Virus record (IMG/VR): IMGVR_UViG_3300048586_000265
Span: 1 to 25,883 of that record
Length of the DNA stretch: 25,883 bases
Origin: a virus
Strand: one strand, 5' to 3'
Shown here: positions 1 to 25,883 of the stretch, one piece after another
Layout: each line of letters starts with the position of its first letter
Numbering within the stretch: position 1 is the stretch's first letter
Program-made: the position numbers and the translations under genes
The notes under the pieces: generated by a model
What the model saw: only the letters and a program-made list of their open reading frames with translations
The model's database searches: none
Told to the model about the DNA's origin: nothing

Positions 1-143
1 CCTGAGGGGGGTGGGGGGGGGGGGGCGTCACAGCCGGGTTGACGTCCCGAAGGCCGCCGAGCCAGTCGTCGTACTTGCCGACCTCGACGCCCTTGGCCTT
101 CAACTCGGCGTACACCATGAAGGCCAGGTCGTCCACCCCCGGC
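1..143. repeat. Left copy of 143-bp terminal overlap
   Basis: This stretch recurs at 25741-25883. Positions 18-143 are identical (126 bases). In the first 17 bases the two copies differ at positions 6, 7, 11 and 17, and in each case this copy has G. That pattern looks like poly-G read-end error, so the right copy is the more trustworthy one. The overlap implies a circular assembly of 25,740 bp. Confidence 0.9.
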
Positions 144-4566: not shown

Positions 4567-4711
4567 CGGTACGGTCCTCCTGTGCCTCGAAGATCAGCCC
4601 GACCAGTACCAGCGCGAGCCCCAGCGCGATCAACCCGGCCCAGGGGGCCAGCATGGCGAACCCGGCGGCGACCAGCAGCAGGCCGAGGACCTGGACCACC
4701 AGAACGATCAC
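4553..4711 (-). CDS. Small hydrophobic membrane protein between terminase and portal
   Basis: A 52-residue protein starting VIVLVVQVLGLL. GTG 4711 forms a GTGA overlap with the terminase stop, and the 3' end overlaps the portal start by 14 bases, so it is embedded in the packaging operon. Residues 1-41 contain two hydrophobic segments split by the short turn APWAG, suggesting a two-pass membrane hairpin. The tail is acidic and hydrophilic (EAQEDRTDGSA). I do not recognise a family. It resembles small membrane proteins found beside phage structural genes, but its role is unknown. Confidence 0.6.
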   Translation of the reverse strand: MIVLVVQVLGLLLVAAGFAMLAPWAGLIALGLALVLVGLIFEAQEDRTDGSA

Positions 4712-6579
4712 GCGACAACCACCTTCGGTCGGTCCTGCCGCTGGGCCCACCAGACGGCCAGGGTCGCGGCCTTGGCTCCCTCGGTCGGCCCCTCCGACTT
4801 GGTGGTCGAGATCCGCATCGCCTCGCCATACGTCTCGACCACCGCACCGATCACCTGCTCGGCCAGCAACTGCGACCCATCATGCCGGAGTGTACCAGCC
4901 TCGACCATCGGGCGAACAGTGGCGACCGCCGCAGCCAGGTCGGCATCTCCGATGAAGATCACCTGACGCACCCCCGCGATCCGGGGCAGGCGGCCCCTCA
5001 GGATCTTGGGCGCCAGGACGGTACACCCGCCGAGGGCCGCTTGCTTGATCACGTGCTCGAGGGCAGACCGGAACGAGATCTCGTCGGCCACCAGGCTGAC
5101 CCCCACCCGCTCCTCATCGAGCACCCCAGCAACGGCCACATACCAGCGGGCTTGCTTGGGCTCGGGATAGATCACGACCGCGCGGTTGGCCGCCGTCCCG
5201 GTCGGGATCATCAGGGCCGGGTCGGCCAGGGCCGCCCAAGCCTCGGGGTCGGCCATCGTGGGCAAGGTGACGTCGAGGTTGGGCCAGATATTGAGCCACT
5301 GTTCGGCGAATCCGTCCTTGCCGACCTTGCTGGCGATGAAGTCGCGTCGGCGCTGGTCCCAGTGGGGGCTGGCCATCCGCTGCTGCCGCACGTCGTGCGG
5401 CTCGTTGTCGGCAGCCGACCACTCGAGCAGCAGGGTCTGGTCCGGCTTGCTGATCTCGGCGATCGCCTCGGCCCTCGCGTCTACCATCAGACGAGTGGCC
5501 TTGCGGTGCGCGGTCGAGATCAGCATCAGCACGGGCTGCTCGCGCTCGGCCATCGTCGGGGTGATCCCCTCCTCGATGTGGAGCGGGTCGATCGACCAGG
5601 CCTCGTCCACCATCGCCATCGAGGCTGAATAGCCATAGACGGCCTCCTGCGCACGGATCAGCCAGCGCCCCATCTCACCGCCGCACTCGACCGCCCACTT
5701 GCCGTTTGCCCCCACCGCGTGCCACAGGGCCCCCGACCGCTCCATCATCGAGGCCCAGTTGCGGGCCGGGCGCTGGATCTCGTCGGCGATCGTCAGGTCC
5801 TTGGCGATGTGGAGCACCAACTGCTGCTCGCCGAGGGTCTCCCACTGGCTGATCCGGTCCAGCGAGATCTCGCGCAGCCCGACGCTCTTGCCGACCTGCC
5901 TGCTGGTCGAGAGCACCACGCGAGACCAGACCAGCACGCCGTCCTCGTCGTGTTCGTACATGCGCACGATCAGCAACTTCTGCCACCAGCGCAGGCTCTT
6001 CGCCTTCACAGGGACCATCGGGTCGGCCGCACGGCGGCTCTCGATGCGCTCAATCGCAGCCCAGCCATACGAGCCGACCGCACGAGGATGCGCATCGGTC
6101 ATCAGCCTCGGCCAGGTCGCATGCTCGGGCACGTCGAGCAGATCGGCCATCCACTCGACCTCGAGCCACTGGTCCGGGACCGCCCCGCCGACCGCCACGA
6201 ACGGCCCGTCCGGGGTTGAGATACTTGAACGTTCAAGGGGGAGTGTGTCAACCTGGGGCACAGGGGTCGACGTTTCGTTTCGAAAAAGCCGAGTTGACGC
6301 TGAGTTGCGCCTAACCGCCTGCTGAAGCCTGGCTCCGTGCCTGCTGTTACACCTGCGGTGGGCAACGACCAACCGGTCGTCTCCGTCTGGCAGCAGATCC
6401 CCACCGAGCATCAGCGGGTCGAGATGGTCGGTGGTCGGTCCGTCAGGGTGGGTGGAGGAGCGCAGGCTGTAGTCGATGGTGTCACCGCATCGGTAACAGA
6501 ACAGGCCTTCGGCCTCGGCCTTGTCCAGATAGGCCGAGGCCCGGGCCTTCCACCCGGGCTGGCGGTGCTTGTTGGCCAT
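4708..6579 (-). CDS. HNH endonuclease-terminase large subunit fusion
   Basis: A 623-residue protein starting MANKHRQPGWKARAS at ATG 6579 behind GAGGAG. Residues 1-90 form an HNH domain: CYRC (28-31), DHLDP with Asp51-His52, and VVAHRRCNSRHG with His74, Cys77, Asn78 and His81. A linker of about 40 residues follows, then the terminase ATPase: Walker A SRQVGKS (226-232), Walker B MAMVDEAW (321-328) and the coupling motif LISTAHR (353-359). The C-terminal half should be the RNase H-like headful/cos nuclease, although the usual Asp of its first strand is not obvious in AVVIYPEPKQ. HNH proteins are known partners of terminases in cos phages, normally as separate genes. Here the two are one frame. 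No small terminase subunit is seen. Confidence 0.9.
   Translation of the reverse strand: MANKHRQPGWKARASAYLDKAEAEGLFCYRCGDTIDYSLRSSTHPDGPTTDHLDPLMLGGDLLPDGDDRLVVAHRRCNSRHGARLQQAVRRNSASTRLFRNETSTPVPQVDTLPLERSSISTPDGPFVAVGGAVPDQWLEVEWMADLLDVPEHATWPRLMTDAHPRAVGSYGWAAIERIESRRAADPMVPVKAKSLRWWQKLLIVRMYEHDEDGVLVWSRVVLSTSRQVGKSVGLREISLDRISQWETLGEQQLVLHIAKDLTIADEIQRPARNWASMMERSGALWHAVGANGKWAVECGGEMGRWLIRAQEAVYGYSASMAMVDEAWSIDPLHIEEGITPTMAEREQPVLMLISTAHRKATRLMVDARAEAIAEISKPDQTLLLEWSAADNEPHDVRQQRMASPHWDQRRRDFIASKVGKDGFAEQWLNIWPNLDVTLPTMADPEAWAALADPALMIPTGTAANRAVVIYPEPKQARWYVAVAGVLDEERVGVSLVADEISFRSALEHVIKQAALGGCTVLAPKILRGRLPRIAGVRQVIFIGDADLAAAVATVRPMVEAGTLRHDGSQLLAEQVIGAVVETYGEAMRISTTKSEGPTEGAKAATLAVWWAQRQDRPKVVVA
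6224..6237. other. Perfect 14-bp palindrome in the HNH-TerL linker
   Basis: The sequence CTTGAACGTTCAAG is its own reverse complement. It lies in an unusually AT-rich stretch for this genome (about 6220-6320), which encodes the linker between the HNH and ATPase domains. It could be a protein-binding or packaging-recognition site. Its function is not known. Confidence 0.4.
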
Positions 6580-6635: not shown

Positions 6636-6644
6636 GTCGGTCAC
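6615..6644 (-). promoter_or_regulatory. Candidate late promoter upstream of terminase
   Basis: On the minus strand GTGACC (6644-6639) and TACAAT (6620-6615) are separated by 18 bases. They fit a sigma70-type -35/-10 pair. TACAAT sits in the hairpin loop and arm, and transcription would begin roughly 30 bases before the terminase ATG. The same design precedes the capsid gene. This is inference from consensus matching. Confidence 0.5.
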
Positions 6645-7066
6645 GCTCCGGACGAGCCGAACCCGTTGTGGCCCCTGGGGGTCTCGGGCATCTCGCCTTC
6701 GACCGGGACCACGGCCTGGGCGACGTTGAGCATGGGGATCGCCTGGCAGATCCGCTCGCCATCAGTCAGGGTGACGGCCTGGTCGGTCAGGTTGCGGACC
6801 ACGCCGAACAGCGGACCGGTGTAGCCGGGGTCGATCACTCCCGGGTTGAGCATCAGGCCCCGGTTCTTGAAGGTCGAGGACCGGCCGATCAGCAGCAGCC
6901 AGCAGCCGGTCGGTGCCTTGAGCCTGGTACGCAGCGGGATGCTGGCGAAGGCATGCGGCCCGATCCAGTGGTCTCCCTCGACGGCCAGGTCGAACCCGGC
7001 ATCGTCGTGGTAGGCCCTGGTGGGGGCCTGGCCCTGATAGATCATCCTGCCACCATGACGGGTCAT
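6641..7066 (-). CDS. dut: dUTP diphosphatase (trimeric dUTPase)
   Basis: A 141-residue enzyme hydrolysing dUTP to dUMP and pyrophosphate, which keeps uracil out of DNA. All five trimeric dUTPase motifs are visible: AGFDLAV near residue 24 (motif 1), GRSSTFKNRG near 76 (motif 2), GVIDPGYTGPL near 90 with the catalytic Asp and Tyr (motif 3), GERICQAIPM near 115 (motif 4) and RGHNGFGSSGA at the end (motif 5). ATG 7066 overlaps the previous stop by 4 bases and has GGAGGAG upstream. An internal ATG at 7045 is possible but has no better ribosome site. It is the last gene of the four-gene nucleotide operon and is followed by a strong hairpin. Confidence 0.93.
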   Translation of the reverse strand: MTRHGGRMIYQGQAPTRAYHDDAGFDLAVEGDHWIGPHAFASIPLRTRLKAPTGCWLLLIGRSSTFKNRGLMLNPGVIDPGYTGPLFGVVRNLTDQAVTLTDGERICQAIPMLNVAQAVVPVEGEMPETPRGHNGFGSSGA

Positions 7067-7440
7067 GTCTGCTGCTCCTCCAACCAGGCCAACGCCTGCT
7101 CGATGGTCTTGACCTGCGGGATGTCCATGAAGGTGAGGGCCCAGGACGGCGCGATGTCGCCGACCACCAGGGCCCGCACCCCGCTCTGGGCCGCCTCCAC
7201 GATCTCGGCCACGACTCCGATCGACAGCCGGTTGGCGTCCACCAGGGCCAGGACGACATCGACCTTGCGGATCACGGCGTGGTTGGCCGCTTGAAGGCCG
7301 GGGACCAGTGGGGCACCCTCACCGACCGACCAGGCCCGGGCCGGGTCGAAGATCACGTGGCCGTGGGTGAGCAGGGCCCGGCGGGCGTCTGCGGTGTCCA
7401 GGGGGCCCTGATCGATCGGGTGGGCCAGGTAGATCAGCAT
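7063..7440 (-). CDS. Nucleoside 2-deoxyribosyltransferase-like protein
   Basis: A 125-residue protein starting MLIYLAHPIDQGPLDT. The N-terminal strand-loop YLAHPID and the later VDVVLALVDANRLSIGVVAEI (residues 60-80) match the layout of the nucleoside 2-deoxyribosyltransferase-like Rossmann fold. In that family YLAxP begins the nucleoside site, and a Glu in the G(T/V)xxEI segment (here Glu79) is the nucleophile. Such enzymes exchange or hydrolyse deoxyribonucleosides or nucleotides. Length is close to the family minimum. It overlaps the MazG-like gene by 7 bases and the dUTPase by 4, so it belongs to the purZ-dut operon and may tune purine deoxynucleotide pools. Fold call moderate; substrate unknown. 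Confidence 0.6.
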   Translation of the reverse strand: MLIYLAHPIDQGPLDTADARRALLTHGHVIFDPARAWSVGEGAPLVPGLQAANHAVIRKVDVVLALVDANRLSIGVVAEIVEAAQSGVRALVVGDIAPSWALTFMDIPQVKTIEQALAWLEEQQT

Positions 7441-7895
7441 GCCGGGCCGCAATCGTGCTCGGCCCCGAGGCCCGGGAAGGCCCCTCCGAGGCCCTGGGAG
7501 CCCGGGGTGGCCCCAGAGGGCCCGGGCGGGCTCTCGTGGCCTCCCGTGGCCCTTCCTGGGCCGGGAAGGGGCACTCCCGGCCAGCCGCCTGCCTCCCGGA
7601 TCCGCTGGACCATCCTCACGTACACCCCCAGGTCCAGCCAGGAGTCGTCGCTGGGCATCCGGCCCTCGTGCCAGGCCGCCTCGATCCTGGCCATCTTGCC
7701 GACCGCGTAGGCCAGACAGCCCAACTCGGCGTGCTGGGCGTCGGTCAGGCCCTCGCGCCCGGCCATGTGAGCCAGCGAGCGGCCCATCTCGACCAGATCG
7801 CGGGCCCCGTACTCGACCGCCTTGGCGACCACCATCTCGATCTCGGACTCGGCCTTGGCCCGCCACCAGCCAGCCAGGGCCTGCTCGGCGCTCAC
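7434..7895 (-). CDS. MazG-like nucleotide pyrophosphohydrolase, MazZ candidate
   Basis: A 153-residue protein starting VSAEQALAGWW. The GTG start overlaps the purZ stop (GTGA). Residues 1-105 are all-helical, with Glu57 in AQHAELGCL, then AVGKMARI and PSDDSWLDLGVYVRMV (81-95). An acidic helix followed by a DxxxD-type helix is how phage MazG-like and related all-alpha NTP pyrophosphohydrolases bind Mg. In Z-genome phages the MazG-family enzyme MazZ turns dGTP into dGMP, the PurZ substrate, and the direct coupling to purZ suggests that job here. The last 45 residues are a Pro/Gly-rich tail encoded by a GC repeat that also occurs in the PrimPol gene. The classical EExxE motif is not clear, so the enzymatic call is tentative. 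Confidence 0.5.
   Translation of the reverse strand: MSAEQALAGWWRAKAESEIEMVVAKAVEYGARDLVEMGRSLAHMAGREGLTDAQHAELGCLAYAVGKMARIEAAWHEGRMPSDDSWLDLGVYVRMVQRIREAGGWPGVPLPGPGRATGGHESPPGPSGATPGSQGLGGAFPGLGAEHDCGPAC
7533..7553. repeat. GC-rich repeat copy in MazG-like tail
   Basis: A 21-base stretch, core CTCGTGGCCTCCCGTGGCCC, recurs in the same orientation at 10761-10781. It sits in a longer GGCC/GGGCC-rich segment (about 7440-7565) that encodes a low-complexity Pro/Gly tail. Confidence 0.7.
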
Positions 7896-8938
7896 TGAGC
7901 CGCCCCCATCTCGAACATGGTCCCCGGGCCGGTCCCGACCAGGGCCACCTTGGCCTGGGTCTGGTCCTCGATCATCCAGATCAGGTCCGACAGGTCCTTG
8001 GGCAGGTCCGAGTGCCAGCGGGTGCCGGACAGACCCGCGACCTGCGGGAACAGATGATCGGCCATGGTCAGCGCGATCCGGGCGACCGGGGCCCCACCGT
8101 TGGCCACCACGGCCTCGGCGGCCAGGTCCCGGTCCCAGGCCCCGACCCGGCGGGGCTTGCGAGTCACGGTGGTCAACTCGACCGGCAGACCCAGGGCCTC
8201 CCAGGTGGTCTCGCCACGCAGGGGGCCGCTGTTGCCAGCGACCCGGATCGGGTTGGGCCTCATCGCGACGTAGACCTCGAGGTCGGCCACGTTGGCCTGC
8301 CAGGGGCTCAGGCCCGCCATGGCCAGGAAGTCGATGGCCCGGCAATCGCTGCTCGTACACTGGGGGTAGAACCCGGCATGGAGCCCGAGCCCGTAGCCCT
8401 GGGTGCCCTCGATGATCACCCGGCCGCCATCGGTCAGGACCTCGTTGAGCACCACGCTGGCCTCGGTCGAGCCACCCCACAACTCGGCGGTCCGCATGAT
8501 CCGGTCGGCCCTGGCGGCCCCGATGCCCTTGCCGGTCGAGCCCACCTTGGCCGTGAGGGCCGCCTGCGCCTCGGCGACCTGGTGGCGGCCGGGCTCGAGC
8601 ACCGTCGCCTGCCAGTCGATGGTGAGCCGGTCGCGCACCTTGAACCCGGCACCCTCGAGCATCTCGATCTCGTGCTCGAGCACCGACCCGTCGATCTCCG
8701 ACCCGGCTGCGATCACCAGCAGCGCCTCGGGGTCGGTGACCGCCGCGACCGGGACGGTGCGCAGGGCCCAGACCCGTCCGGTCGGGTCGGTGGCCGAGTG
8801 CCCCGCGTTGGGACCCGCCACCCTCACGACCGCCGTGGGACCGCTGGGGTGAGGCTGGCGGCTCAGGTGCGCGACGACCGCGCCCTTGCCCTCCGAGCCG
8901 AACTGGCCGCCGACGACGACCTGGATCTTTCCACTCAT
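7892..8938 (-). CDS. purZ: PurZ-type adenylosuccinate synthetase homologue (2-aminoadenine synthesis)
   Basis: A 348-residue PurA-superfamily enzyme, the short archaeal/phage form (bacterial PurA is about 430). The P-loop is GGQFGSEGKGA (residues 10-20): Ser15 replaces the catalytic Asp of GDEGKG in PurA, the established PurZ hallmark. Other family blocks are AGPNAGHS (41-48), STGKGIGAA (134-142), EGTQGYGLGLHAG (177-189), TSSDC (195-199) and KPRRVGAWD (261-269). PurZ condenses dGMP with aspartate to N6-succinyl-2-amino-dAMP, which PurB cleaves to dZMP. ATG 8938 follows AGGAG. The gene leads a coupled operon with MazG-like, deoxyribosyltransferase-like and dUTPase genes and lies next to the putative origin. 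LTMADH (290-295) keeps an Asp where PurA binds guanine, so GTP use (PurZ0-like) is possible. Confidence 0.9.
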   Translation of the reverse strand: MSGKIQVVVGGQFGSEGKGAVVAHLSRQPHPSGPTAVVRVAGPNAGHSATDPTGRVWALRTVPVAAVTDPEALLVIAAGSEIDGSVLEHEIEMLEGAGFKVRDRLTIDWQATVLEPGRHQVAEAQAALTAKVGSTGKGIGAARADRIMRTAELWGGSTEASVVLNEVLTDGGRVIIEGTQGYGLGLHAGFYPQCTSSDCRAIDFLAMAGLSPWQANVADLEVYVAMRPNPIRVAGNSGPLRGETTWEALGLPVELTTVTRKPRRVGAWDRDLAAEAVVANGGAPVARIALTMADHLFPQVAGLSGTRWHSDLPKDLSDLIWMIEDQTQAKVALVGTGPGTMFEMGAAQ

Positions 8939-9010
8939 CTCGCTGCTCCTGTCTCGTGGTGCTGGGCCGCTATCCTAGCGTGCCCAGGGTCTGTGTATCC
9001 AGGCTGGCCT

Positions 9011-9186
9011 GTGTCCGCCCGCTCTGGTGTCCGTGTCCGTGTCCGGTGTCCGCCAGCAGATCCCGTGCCCGGCGGTGACGGCGTGTGTCCACCGTGACAC
9101 CCCCCCCCGAAGGGGGGGTCACGTGGACACGCCTCGCCGCACGATGTCCAAAGAAATAATGGACACGAGTGGACACGAGTGGACAC
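9011..9186. other. Candidate replication origin with iterons and hairpin
   Basis: The 277-bp gap between PrimPol and purZ has ten copies of one hexamer. GTGTCC occurs at 9011, 9027, 9033, 9039, 9046 and 9085, and its inverse GGACAC at 9125, 9161, 9171 and 9181. Between the two sets is a hairpin of about 19 bp (9085-9130, two single-base bulges, 6-base loop) and the only AT-rich patch here, AAAGAAATAAT (9150-9160). The last three inverse copies form 10-bp direct repeats. Iterons, a cruciform and an AT-rich patch beside a replication gene fit an origin. Promoter elements for purZ may also lie here. Confidence 0.6.
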
Positions 9187-12224: not shown

Positions 12225-13022
12225 TCAAGACCTCCACGCGATCTCGCGGCTCGAGCGCCAGGCACGCACCCGCACCGAGTGCTGGGCCATCTCCCAGCCG
12301 GTCGAGATGTCCAGCCAGACCAACTCGCACCGAGCCTGGCCCTGGGGCAGCCAGATCATCAGGGCCCGATCCTGGTCCACGTGCTCGGACAGATCGACCG
12401 TGCGCTGGTCGGTGCTCGTGTCGTAGACCGTGCCGTGGGCGTAGACCGCACACTGGACCGAGGCCGAGTGCGGGTAGGCCGCCGCATGCGTGCCGGTCTT
12501 GATGTCTGCGATGAAGGTTCCCTCGTCGGTGCGCACCAGCCGGTCGAACGACCCGGCCGTGCGGATCGAGTCGCAGACCACGAAGGTCTCGCGGGCCAGC
12601 ATCTGAAGGCCCTCGGTCGCCTGGCGGTAGGCGGCCAGGTCGGCGGCCACTTCGCCCGAGACCCCGAGCGCCTCGATCGGCTCGCCATCATCGACCCGCT
12701 CGGTCAGCGCGTGGAGTGCCGTGCCCATGTTGGCTGCGGCCTGCGACTCGGCCGCCTCCATCGCCTGCTCGGCAATCTCGTTCAGGGCCGCCTTGTCACC
12801 AGGGTCGACCGACGCTGCCAGGGCCCGCAGGTCGGCCCGGCGGGCCAGCCCGATGATCACCTGGCGCTGCTTCCAGGCCATCAACCCGTAGGTGTCGGTC
12901 AGGGTCGTGGCCAGGGTCGAGGCCCGGGTGTAGGCGACCCGCTTACCGCCGGTTGCCGGGACCAACAGCGGTCGGCCCCAGCGGTCCCGGGGCGGCCCGG
13001 CGAAGGCCGCATCCAGGCTCAC
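12225..13022 (-). CDS. RecB/Cas4-family PD-(D/E)XK exonuclease
   Basis: A 265-residue nuclease starting VSLDAAFAGPPRDRWG. GTG 13022 overlaps the previous stop (GTGA). Active-site elements occur in RecB order: GTALHAL with His104, GSFDRLV with Asp160, FIADIKTG with Asp173 and Lys175, and the downstream QCAVY (190-194), a QxxxY motif. Such enzymes act as 5'-3' exonucleases in phage recombination and replication, or in degrading host DNA. The protein lacks an obvious four-Cys iron-sulphur cluster of Cas4. It belongs to a coupled run of genes from the resolvase-like nuclease through PurB. Confidence 0.82.
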   Translation of the reverse strand: MSLDAAFAGPPRDRWGRPLLVPATGGKRVAYTRASTLATTLTDTYGLMAWKQRQVIIGLARRADLRALAASVDPGDKAALNEIAEQAMEAAESQAAANMGTALHALTERVDDGEPIEALGVSGEVAADLAAYRQATEGLQMLARETFVVCDSIRTAGSFDRLVRTDEGTFIADIKTGTHAAAYPHSASVQCAVYAHGTVYDTSTDQRTVDLSEHVDQDRALMIWLPQGQARCELVWLDISTGWEMAQHSVRVRAWRSSREIAWRS

Positions 13023-13303
13023 TGGTCGCCCTCGAAGGTCAGCGGCGTGCGCAGGCCGGGGGTGGTCGCGACCCAGGCCAGCCGGTCTGCGTCCGAGTCG
13101 AAGTAGTGGACCAGCACCTTGGGGTTGGTCTGGGACCAGGCCGGGTCCACCAGGACCACGGCGTAGTTGCTGGCGGGCAGGTTGACGCTGTAGACCTGGG
13201 TGCCGTCCACGTCCCCGAGATGGGTGATGTGCGGGGCTCCTGCCAGGCACGCCAACACCAACTCGCGGCTGGTCGGCCGGTTGACGTCGCTGCGTCGGAT
13301 CAT
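13019..13303 (-). CDS. Hypothetical protein between PurB and exonuclease
   Basis: A 94-residue protein starting MIRRSDVNRPTSRELVLACL. The ATG overlaps the purB stop by 4 bases, and its own stop overlaps the exonuclease start. The N-terminal helix is followed by strands QVYSVNLPASNYAVVLVD and KVLVHYFDSDADRLAWVA, suggesting a small alpha/beta fold. I do not recognise a family. Tight coupling on both sides says it is really translated. Confidence 0.7.
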   Translation of the reverse strand: MIRRSDVNRPTSRELVLACLAGAPHITHLGDVDGTQVYSVNLPASNYAVVLVDPAWSQTNPKVLVHYFDSDADRLAWVATTPGLRTPLTFEGDQ

Positions 13304-14520
13304 GAGTGCTGCTCCTTGTTCGATTCGGCCGGGCGTGAGCCCAGCAGGCGGGTGATCTCGGCCAGGTGGCCGAGGTCGGGTCGAAGGTCGAGGTCGTCCA
13401 CCCGCACGGCCGGGTCGGCCGCCATCTCACGGGCGGCGGCGTACGAGACCCCGGCCCGCTGGATCTTGGTCAGCCTGGCGTGTGCGCTGGTGTTGCGGGC
13501 GGTGGCGATGTTGCGGGCCATCTGCTCGGTGTTGAACACCAGGTCGGTGACCAGCCGGGTCATCAGGTTCAGCAGATAGCCGGTCGTGTTGGCCATCTGC
13601 CCGACCAGCAGCCGCTCGACCGAGGAGTGGCTGATGTCCCGGTCATGCCAGGACGCCACGTTGGCCCACAGGGCGGTCGAATCGGCCACCACCACCCGGG
13701 CCAGCCCGCAGGCCCTCTCGGCCTCGATCGGGTTGCGCTTGCCCGGCATGGCCGAGGAGCCCGCGCGGCCCTCCGAGGCCCCTTCTCGGGCCTCGTCGAT
13801 ACCTTCCTGGGCCCACAGCCGGATCTGGACCGCCACGGCCTCGCAGGCGGTGGCCAGCCCGGCCAGGGTCGCACCCCAGGCGGCCAGCGAGTCGCGGGGG
13901 TAGATCTGGCTGGCGACCCGGGCTCGAGGCAGGCGCAGGTGCTCGGCGGCCCGGTCGGCCACGTCGGGACTGATCTCGTGGTGCCCGCCCGAGGGCCCAC
14001 CGATCTTGGCGACCTCGACCCACTCGCAGGCTTCCTGGAACCGCAGCACGCAGCGACTGACCATCAGGGCCAGGTCGAGCAGGCGGTGGCCCAGCGTGTC
14101 GATGACCGCTGACTGGCCGTGGGTCCGAGCCAGCCTCGGAGTGTCGGCATGCTCGGCCGCTCGGGCCAGCAGCGCCTCGCGCAGCCGGAACCCCTCTTCG
14201 ATCAGCACGTGGTTGACCTCGCGCAGCCGCAGGGCCAGGCCCGTGTCGGTGACGTCGCTGCTGGTCAGCCCGATGTGGACGTGCTCGAGCCCCCAGGCCA
14301 GCAGGAACCCGACGACCTCGTGGCCGCACTCGGCCGTGGCGGCCTGCCATGCCTCGACGCTGGGGGCTGGGGCCTCGAAGGCCTGCTCGGCCCAGGCCAC
14401 CGGGATCTGCCCGTGCTCAGCCTGCGCCAGCAGGACCGCACGCTCGACCGCGCACCAGGTATCCAGCACGGCCTCGGGGCACAGGTTGATCTCGACGGCG
14501 GGGTGGGTGTAGGGGCTCAT
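13300..14520 (-). CDS. purB: Adenylosuccinate lyase (phage-encoded PurB)
   Basis: A 406-residue member of the fumarase/aspartase superfamily. It starts MSPYTHPAVEIN. Family blocks in order: GLTSSDVTDTGLA near residue 82 (substrate-binding SSDV), RTHGQSAVIDTLG near 131 (catalytic His region), KIGGPSGGHHE near 170, and the signature loop GSSAMPGKRNPIEAE near 254 with the catalytic Ser. The enzyme splits succinyl-AMP to AMP and fumarate. With PurZ present, it would convert N6-succinyl-2-amino-dAMP to dZMP. The TSSDVTDT and MPGKRNP details favour ASL over argininosuccinate lyase or fumarase. ATG 14520 overlaps the upstream nuclease stop. Cellular PurB is usually 430-480 residues, so this is a compact form. 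Confidence 0.92.
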   Translation of the reverse strand: MSPYTHPAVEINLCPEAVLDTWCAVERAVLLAQAEHGQIPVAWAEQAFEAPAPSVEAWQAATAECGHEVVGFLLAWGLEHVHIGLTSSDVTDTGLALRLREVNHVLIEEGFRLREALLARAAEHADTPRLARTHGQSAVIDTLGHRLLDLALMVSRCVLRFQEACEWVEVAKIGGPSGGHHEISPDVADRAAEHLRLPRARVASQIYPRDSLAAWGATLAGLATACEAVAVQIRLWAQEGIDEAREGASEGRAGSSAMPGKRNPIEAERACGLARVVVADSTALWANVASWHDRDISHSSVERLLVGQMANTTGYLLNLMTRLVTDLVFNTEQMARNIATARNTSAHARLTKIQRAGVSYAAAREMAADPAVRVDDLDLRPDLGHLAEITRLLGSRPAESNKEQHS

Positions 14521-25117: not shown

Positions 25118-25602
25118 CAGCGCCTCACCAGCCTGGTGTTGGCCTGGTCGGCCACCCGATCGACGGCCTCGAGCACGGCCTTCTGGACCTCGGGCATCTT
25201 GCGCTGGGCAGCGGGCCAGACCGACCGGCTGGCCCCGCCCCAGCGGGCCGACAGGGCGGCCGACAGCCGGGAGGCGCTGGCCGCTCCGGCCATGTCGTAG
25301 ATCGAGGCCCCGGCCCCCGCCAGGACAACCCGAGCCAACGGCCAGGTGGTCTTGGTGCGGGGCCGCCTGCCGCCCACCTTGACCGAGACCTTGGTGCCGC
25401 TCTTGGTCCACCCAGTGCGCCCCGAGTGGCCGAACCCGGACAATGGGGGGCTGCCCGGAAGCGAGGACCGGATCTCGGCGGCCATCGGCTCAGCCGCTGA
25501 CCGGATCTGCTTCATGGCCTCACGGTACAGGGCCGGGTCGAGTGACCGCAAGACCGCGAGGGTCTCCTTGACCCCGTAGACCGAGGGAGTGCTGGCGCTC
25601 AA
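25117..25602 (-). CDS. HK97 gp10-like tail completion protein
   Basis: A 161-residue protein. It starts at TTG 25602, which overlaps the frameshifted chaperone stop (TTGA) and follows AGGAGGAAG. The sequence has the basic helical start and the loop IRSSLPGSPPLSGFGHSGRTGW common in gp10-like/HK97 tail-joining proteins. It ends in a helix ARWGGASRSVWPAAQRKMPEVQKAVLEAVDRV. gp10-like proteins normally lie between the connector and the major tail protein. Here the gene is between the chaperone and the tape measure, so a tail assembly role specific to this lineage is possible. Fold call moderate. Confidence 0.55.
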   Translation of the reverse strand: MSASTPSVYGVKETLAVLRSLDPALYREAMKQIRSAAEPMAAEIRSSLPGSPPLSGFGHSGRTGWTKSGTKVSVKVGGRRPRTKTTWPLARVVLAGAGASIYDMAGAASASRLSAALSARWGGASRSVWPAAQRKMPEVQKAVLEAVDRVADQANTRLVRR

Positions 25603-25883
25603 CGCTTCCTCCTGGTCGCCTGGTTCCGCTTGTTGATCACGTCCACCATCGTGGCCAACATACCGGGGTCAAGGTCGAGCAGCGCTGACGGCGAGATCCC
25701 GGTCTCGACCGCCAACTCCACGATCAGTCGCTCGACGGTTCCTGATCGGGCTGGGGCGGGGGGGGCGTCACAGCCGGGTTGACGTCCCGAAGGCCGCCGA
25801 GCCAGTCGTCGTACTTGCCGACCTCGACGCCCTTGGCCTTCAACTCGGCGTACACCATGAAGGCCAGGTCGTCCACCCCCGGC
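25599..25883 (-). CDS. Tail assembly chaperone, 3' part with -1 frameshift (continues at left end)
   Basis: This continues the gene that starts at 262. The zero frame ends QPDQEPSSD with TGA at 25726-25724. A -1 shift on the slippery heptamer C CCC CCG (25763-25757) instead gives APARSGTVERLIVELAVETG and ends NKRNQATRRKR at the TGA 25601-25599. The shifted product has 134 residues and the unshifted one 92. The extension is helical with a basic end. Without a shift the distance between start and this stop (404 bases) is not a multiple of three. Programmed -1 slippage between G and G-T is a hallmark of siphovirus tail chaperones, in which the T extension binds the tail tube protein. Confidence 0.82.
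   Translation of the reverse strand, partial: AGGGRPGLHGVRRVEGQGRRGRQVRRLARRPSGRQPGCDAPPAPARSGTVERLIVELAVETGISPSALLDLDPGMLATMVDVINKRNQATRRKR
25741..25883. repeat. Right copy of 143-bp terminal overlap
   Basis: Matches positions 1-143, with four differences in the first 17 bases. This copy has the normal mixed sequence there, where the left copy has G. It joins the two ends of a circular assembly. Confidence 0.9.
25757..25763 (-). promoter_or_regulatory. Programmed -1 ribosomal frameshift site
   Basis: The minus-strand heptamer C CCC CCG fits the X XXY YYZ rule, and both tRNAs can re-pair one base back. It sits in an 8-C run (25765-25758) about 30 bases before the zero-frame stop at 25724. 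Confidence 0.75.

Follow-up and report, generated by a model that had tools for sequence, protein, structure and literature searches.

A predicted PurZ0 gene set for 2-aminoadenine DNA, with a phage lyase homologue, in a closed 25.7-kb tailed phage genome

The locus and its genome

The window, by which we mean the whole 25,883-nt stretch analysed, is the entire IMG/VR virus record IMGVR_UViG_3300048586_000265, and its main features are collected in Table 1. The gene that we call purZ0 heads an operon of four translationally coupled genes with overlapping starts and stops, purZ0-X-dmtZ-dutZ. The same order is found in the phages Ghobes, Archimedes, Galactica, and Hiyaa and in most of the 91 PurZ0 loci that we compared, with dmtZ and dutZ fused in some of them.

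A 143-bp match between the two ends of the record closes the genome at ~25.7 kb, and its sequence indicates a complete tailed phage genome rather than a fragment. When joined, the ends (1-262 and 25599-25883) meet at a C/G run within a gene that shortly precedes the tail genes. Two frames run on into each other there, a pattern known from tail assembly chaperones that use a programmed frameshift.

Table 1. Coordinates of the features discussed (positions within the window)
Feature	Position	Strand	Basis or remark
Terminase large subunit with N-terminal HNH domain (residues 11-96), single frame	4708..6579	-	Protein scan
dutZ-like, dUTPase fold, expected dATP and dGTP hydrolase	6641..7066	-	ATGA overlap with dmtZ; ATG at 7066
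dmtZ-like, NDT-family dAMP hydrolase / dR5P transferase to Z base (predicted)	7063..7440	-	ATG at 7440, inside the end of X
Gene X, 153 aa, uncharacterised all-helical protein	7434..7895	-	GTG at 7895 overlaps the purZ0 stop
purZ0, N6-succino-2-amino-dAMP (dSMP) synthetase (predicted)	7892..8938	-	Families, PDB, tree, pocket residues
Iteron-like array of GTGTCC (25 sites in the genome, 10 of them in these 176 bp)	9011..9186		Gap between primase-helicase and purZ0
PrimPol (AEP) + AAA_25 helicase, 714 aa	9216..11360	-	Only polymerase-like gene found
Exonuclease, PD-(D/E)XK	12225..13022	-	PHROG 466
purB, adenylosuccinate-lyase homologue, 406 aa, expected dSMP to dZMP	13300..14520	-	Families, motifs, tree
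Right-end copy of 143-bp terminal overlap	25741..25883		Matches window 1-143; 126 bp exact

The purZ0 product and its relatives

The purZ0 open reading frame (8938-7892, minus strand) starts with ATG and encodes 348 aa, with the motif QFGSEGKG placing Ser15 at the position of the catalytic Asp of PurA (Asp13). The preliminary description had read the gene as a 348-residue PurA homologue with GSEGKG in place of GDEGKG, and not as a decayed PurA; both points are borne out, and chance can be set aside as well, the frame having no internal stop and most of its pocket residues being the same or conservatively changed. The product matches Pfam Adenylsucc_synt (8.4e-39), the NCBIfam PurZ model NF038379 (326.6 bits, above its curated cut-off of 300), and PHROG 1211 (2-aminooxy adenylosuccinate synthetase; 2.9e-81); it misses the PurA equivalog cut-offs by far (148 bits versus 396 for TIGR00184). 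Its best PDB match, at 306 bits, is 7vf6, which is the PurZ0 of Gordonia phage Archimedes (PMC12884076), followed by archaeal PurA (167 bits), phiVC8 PurZ (113 bits), and S-2L PurZ (71 bits).

In a maximum-likelihood tree of 91 proteins, built by a quick method with SH-aLRT support only, the purZ0 product falls within the 47-row PurZ0 clade (support of 100), which takes in seven named PurZ0 phages, among them Wayne, Ghobes, Galactica, Hiyaa, and Archimedes. PurZ forms a clade of its own (support of 100), archaeal and bacterial PurA fall outside, and the closest partners of the purZ0 product are the proteins of two environmental loci, L095 and L046 (support of 98). A phylogeny with PurA, PurZ0, and PurZ, as the preliminary description had proposed, thus gives no clustering with cellular PurA, and the absence of the catalytic Asp of GDEGKG likewise separates the protein from canonical PurA. 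The name PurZ given to it earlier stands for the wider PurZ group but not for the member: its position outside the PurZ clade, its Asp294 (see below), and the 306 bits to 7vf6 versus 113 to phiVC8 PurZ make it a PurZ0. Its interpretation as a PurZ-group enzyme in a Z-phage gene set (Z being 2-aminoadenine) is thereby supported at the level of sequence.

We mapped onto the protein the dGMP-pocket and phosphate-contact residues published for S-2L PurZ. Ser15 and Thr256 are present as in PurZ and PurZ0, and the remaining residues are identical or conservatively replaced (Tyr21 by Phe), with two exceptions at the S-2L Y203 and T53 sites, where other PurZ0 proteins vary too; the S-2L ATP-base contacts N305, F306, and Q308 are changed, likewise in other PurZ0 proteins. 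At the base site of the nucleotide donor, the protein has Asp294 where PurZ has Asn or Gln (Asp in 47 of 47 PurZ0 rows, Asn in four and Gln in one PurZ, Asp in 9 of 9 archaeal PurA rows and in all PurA rows checked). According to the S-2L PurZ paper, Gln or Asn at this site conflicts with a 2-amino group, and Asp294 therefore fits the use of GTP. GTP is the predicted donor of this phage's PurZ0. PurZ0 is said to use GTP in its original description. One sentence of PMC12884076 reverses the order of ATP and GTP, and the introduction of the same paper assigns ATP to PurZ.

Although expected of PurZ, and present at the Asp13 site in all 47 PurZ0 rows, Ser cannot serve as the diagnostic mark that the preliminary description took it for, since it recurs in paralogues on bacterial chromosomes. 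GTDB genomes, scanned for relatives of the purZ0 product, gave 351 stretches encoding them, and the 80 of these that were kept hold nearly exclusively bacterial chromosomal proteins of ~350 aa with GSEGKG, a family that falls outside the PurZ0 clade in the 91-protein tree. In all seven bacterial genomes checked, a canonical PurA is encoded beside the GSEGKG paralogue. The earlier inference holds here because phylogeny and gene context agree with it; from Ser alone, it would fail in a bacterial genome.

The bacterial GSEGKG paralogue has features of its own. Phage PurZ adjoins this widespread family in the tree, and the paralogue sits in a conserved cassette, seen in L098, L102, L133, L137, L172, and ~75 further GTDB loci (at ~8001-9000 of each). 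Upstream lies an RNase_H_2-DUF429-AAA kinase fusion, with related proteins in ~63 of 79 loci, and the downstream neighbour (~67 of 79 loci) resembles dCTP deaminases and has a hydrophobic stretch like a membrane segment.

Companion genes and the phage lyase

Tyr6, Asp12, Gln13, Pro57, Asn77, Glu103, and Trp124 of Ghobes DmtZ have been shown or modelled to matter (PMC12884076), and they align with Tyr4, Asp10, Gln11, Pro, Asn, Glu, and Trp of the dmtZ-like product, in which all catalytic residues (Tyr, Asn, Glu, and the equivalents of Asp12, Pro57, and Trp124) are present. Among the 50 matches listed, spread over 325, the dutZ-like protein scores 89 to 118 bits with PurZ0 phages and 66 bits with the best other phage, and within this set its closest matches are Dut proteins from PurZ0 phages. 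DutZ hydrolyses dATP and dGTP, and DmtZ is a dAMP hydrolase that is also able to move deoxyribose phosphate onto Z; every PurZ0 genome at NCBI has dutZ and usually also dmtZ (PMC12884076), and this phage carries both.

Gene X, searched with a profile built from it, directly follows purZ0 in 90 of 91 PurZ0 loci, the sole exception being Wayne, which has DUF5664 in its place; this family, carried by Arthrobacter PurZ0 phages, did not turn up in the genome analysed here. None of 38 X members matches a Pfam family above cut-off. The AlphaFold model of X is a confident four-helix structure (pLDDT of 92, pTM of 0.81) that finds nothing significant in the PDB (best E value of 1.9; the MazG-like DR2231 at 4.3) and, among viral models, retrieves PurZ0-phage homologues first and then weak DUF6378 and nucleotide-modification-associated matches (E values of 0.06 to 0.5), such that the modelled fold hints weakly at a DUF6378/MazG-like type. 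X could hypothetically supply dGMP or act as a partner of PurZ0. MazZ, MazZ-2, DUF550, and DUF5664 were considered as homologues of X and set aside, since HHalign gave no match (best probability of 0.6%).

The phage purB lies apart from the operon in this genome. The purB product matches TIGR00928 at 5.4e-76, which is below the cut-off of that model, and retains the catalytic RTH and SSxMPxKRNP motifs. Its signature loop (13760-13720, minus strand) reads SSAMPGKRNP, most other PurBs that we saw having SSxMPHKxNP; Gly at this loop position also occurs in some other lyases of the superfamily.

Relatives of PurB and of the primase were reached through alignment-based and family-based searches. 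Viral contig searches with this PurB alone confirmed nothing, and those with the primase alone gave weak helicase matches only. In the phage collection, 35 of 50,697 records match purB, 11 of which are Streptomyces and Gordonia PurZ0 phages; starting from PurZ0 loci instead, 26 of the 35 records reached contain a lyase-family match. The 30 phage rows of the PurB tree form one clade apart from the sampled cellular PurBs (support of 99), within which this phage's PurB groups with L095 and L046 (support of 97), its partners in the PurZ0 tree as well. Over 32 loci, distances among the PurB proteins follow those among the PurZ0 proteins (r=0.88, Mantel p ~0.0005; r=0.67 for X with PurZ0), and purB appears to co-evolve with purZ0, although common ancestry of the phages in their entirety would push the correlation up too. 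In one group of loci, purB starts less than 300 bp from purZ0 in the same orientation, either overlapping X or following it closely, and in another, it adjoins purZ0 on the opposite strand.

Most environmental PurZ0 records that we examined thus bring a lyase of their own that is linked to purZ0 and co-evolves with it, whereas the published accounts credit the step from dSMP to dZMP to the host, stating that post-PurZ enzymes were not found on phage genomes or naming the bacterial PurB (PMC8342488, PMC12783734); in the 2026 PurZ0 paper, PurB goes unmentioned (PMC12884076). The link between purB and purZ0 may be new to the searchable literature, but this is not certain. Together, the operon and the phage purB are stronger evidence for the interpretation than the Ser on which the preliminary description relied, and it left both unused.

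The nearest PurZ0 relative, at ~62 to 63% identity, is L095 (CAIOKD010000330.1), a contig binned into a Verrucomicrobia genome. Its X, dmtZ, dutZ, and purB genes and a homologous primase mark the contig as probable phage sequence within the bin, which holds two lyase-family matches, one of them on the purZ0 contig.

Replication genes and the proposed route to Z

The closed genome contains no match to DNA_pol_A (DpoZ, PF00476) and none to the YfbR-like HD family of DatZ (PF12917). Among the proteins scanned (some small frames lie outside the scan), PHROG yields no polymerase besides the primase, the others being structural, lysis, exonuclease, or RusA-like proteins or without assignment. Of the AEP motifs, the PrimPol retains DVD at motif I and the motif II His; at motif III, presumably the position of the third metal ligand, it apparently has Glu where Wayne and Ghobes have Asp. 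With motif III apparently altered, its polymerase activity is uncertain. The L095 primase likewise has Glu in motif III, and its motif II His is apparently missing too. A pol I is present in 18 of 35 PurZ0 records and was not found in the other 17, many of the records being fragments, and all seven named PurZ0 phages examined have an annotated DNA polymerase of the pol I type. Only one of ten relatives checked, a large record, has an end overlap, so most of the other PurZ0 records that lack a polymerase may be fragments.

Next to the primase gene, the GTGTCC array has six sites on the plus and four on the minus strand and includes a strong hairpin around 9080-9134 (-42.5 kcal/mol, z of -3.1), making it a candidate origin of replication or operator.

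Taken together, this complete ~25.7-kb tailed phage very probably uses the PurZ0 route to make the Z of its DNA; we infer the enzyme activities and the presence of Z in virion DNA from sequence. DutZ, possibly with X, would convert dGTP to dGMP and dATP to dAMP; PurZ0 would join dGMP and aspartate at the expense of GTP to give dSMP; the phage PurB would split dSMP into dZMP and fumarate; and host kinases would raise dZMP to dZTP. DmtZ would destroy dAMP and could rebuild dZMP from free Z, adenine would be kept out by draining the dATP pool, without DpoZ or DatZ, and the genome would be copied by the phage PrimPol, a host polymerase, or both. Counting against this reading are the annotated polymerases of the seven named PurZ0 phages, for which no counterpart was found here, the apparent change in PrimPol motif III, and the missing DUF5664.

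Since only a PrimPol-helicase was found, and neither DpoZ nor DatZ, control of the nucleotide pool is probably what excludes adenine, as it does in cyanophage S-2L. The main competitor, which we regard as unlikely though worth weighing, is that the pathway works but Z replaces A only partly, virion DNA being an A/Z mix in a phage that has no Z-selective polymerase. The missing DpoZ and DatZ matches fit such a mix, as does the fact that DmtZ and DutZ can merely lower the dATP pool; however, hydrolysis of dATP is enough for S-2L, with its non-selective PrimPol, to exclude A (PMC8065100), and DutZ and DmtZ do an equivalent job in PurZ0 phages (PMC12884076). The fullest version of the PurZ0 reading, in which a 25.7-kb genome combines its own dSMP lyase, a near-universal partner X (perhaps a dGTP pyrophosphohydrolase or a PurZ0 subunit), and replacement of A by Z through pool control alone, without a Z-selective polymerase, is tentative, and we would give it slightly less than an even chance. 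The phage purB, gene X, and the absence of DpoZ and DatZ matches go beyond the searchable published picture. A closed genome of this size with the pathway and no DpoZ found offers a compact set for the minimal needs of a Z genome and bears on whether pool control alone suffices outside S-2L.

Other explanations fare worse. It is very improbable that the purZ0 product belongs to the bacterial GSEGKG family and was acquired for another purpose: that family shares the Ser and, in nearly all members, the Thr of the 256 site, but it lies outside the phage clade that holds the purZ0 product, its best member is 38 to 39% identical to the protein versus 62% for the nearest PurZ0 relative, and the cassette partners (the RNase_H_2-DUF429-AAA fusion and the DCD-like membrane protein) were not found in this genome. 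Equally improbable is an artefact of assembly, with the missing polymerase on unassembled sequence. IMG/VR labels the record linear, and the first ~17 bases of the terminal overlap are noisy, yet the exact 126-bp match falls within one continuous structural gene region; the L095 contig carries a homologous primase, while the 3.0-Mb bin that contains it, surely incomplete, has no DNA_pol_A match, nor do several independent 33- to 35-kb relatives (L017, L028, L050, and L024 records). That the protein is an ordinary adenylosuccinate synthetase acting on IMP, boosting host purine synthesis together with PurB, can practically be dismissed: its PurA fold and the phage purB would suit this role, but Ser replaces the catalytic Asp, the TIGR00184 score is far too low, dmtZ and dutZ share the purZ0 operon, and the PurA clades lie outside in the tree.

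Among known Z phages, the closest parallels to the proposed PurZ0 route are Galactica and Hiyaa of Streptomyces and Archimedes and Ghobes of Gordonia, whose purZ0 is ~47 to 57% identical to that of this phage and which share the purZ0-X-dmtZ-dutZ order, a phage purB, and the GTP-type Asp. Their genomes, however, are 45 to 83 kb and encode DNA polymerase I (DpoZ-1 type), where this phage has 25.7 kb and no pol I found, and dmtZ and dutZ, separate here, are joined in a single fusion in Galactica and Hiyaa. Arthrobacter phage Wayne, whose DutZ, DmtZ, and DUF5664 have been assayed (PMC12884076), shares the PurZ0 clade and a DmtZ and DutZ with matching catalytic residues, but it replaces X by DUF5664, has a DmtZ-DutZ fusion and a DNA polymerase gene, and has no purB that we could find. 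Like this phage, S-2L has no pol I and a PrimPol as its only polymerase-like gene, and the dATP hydrolysis by which it excludes A is what we propose here; its gene set, in contrast, is PurZ (ATP type), DatZ, and MazZ rather than PurZ0, DutZ/DmtZ, X, and purB, and the two PrimPols differ in domain make-up. With Vibrio phage phiVC8 (PurZ, DatZ, DpoZ), the phage would share the key reaction at 34% identity, whereas phiVC8 PurZ has Asn instead of the GTP-selecting Asp, the other accessory genes differ, and the lyase step comes from the host.
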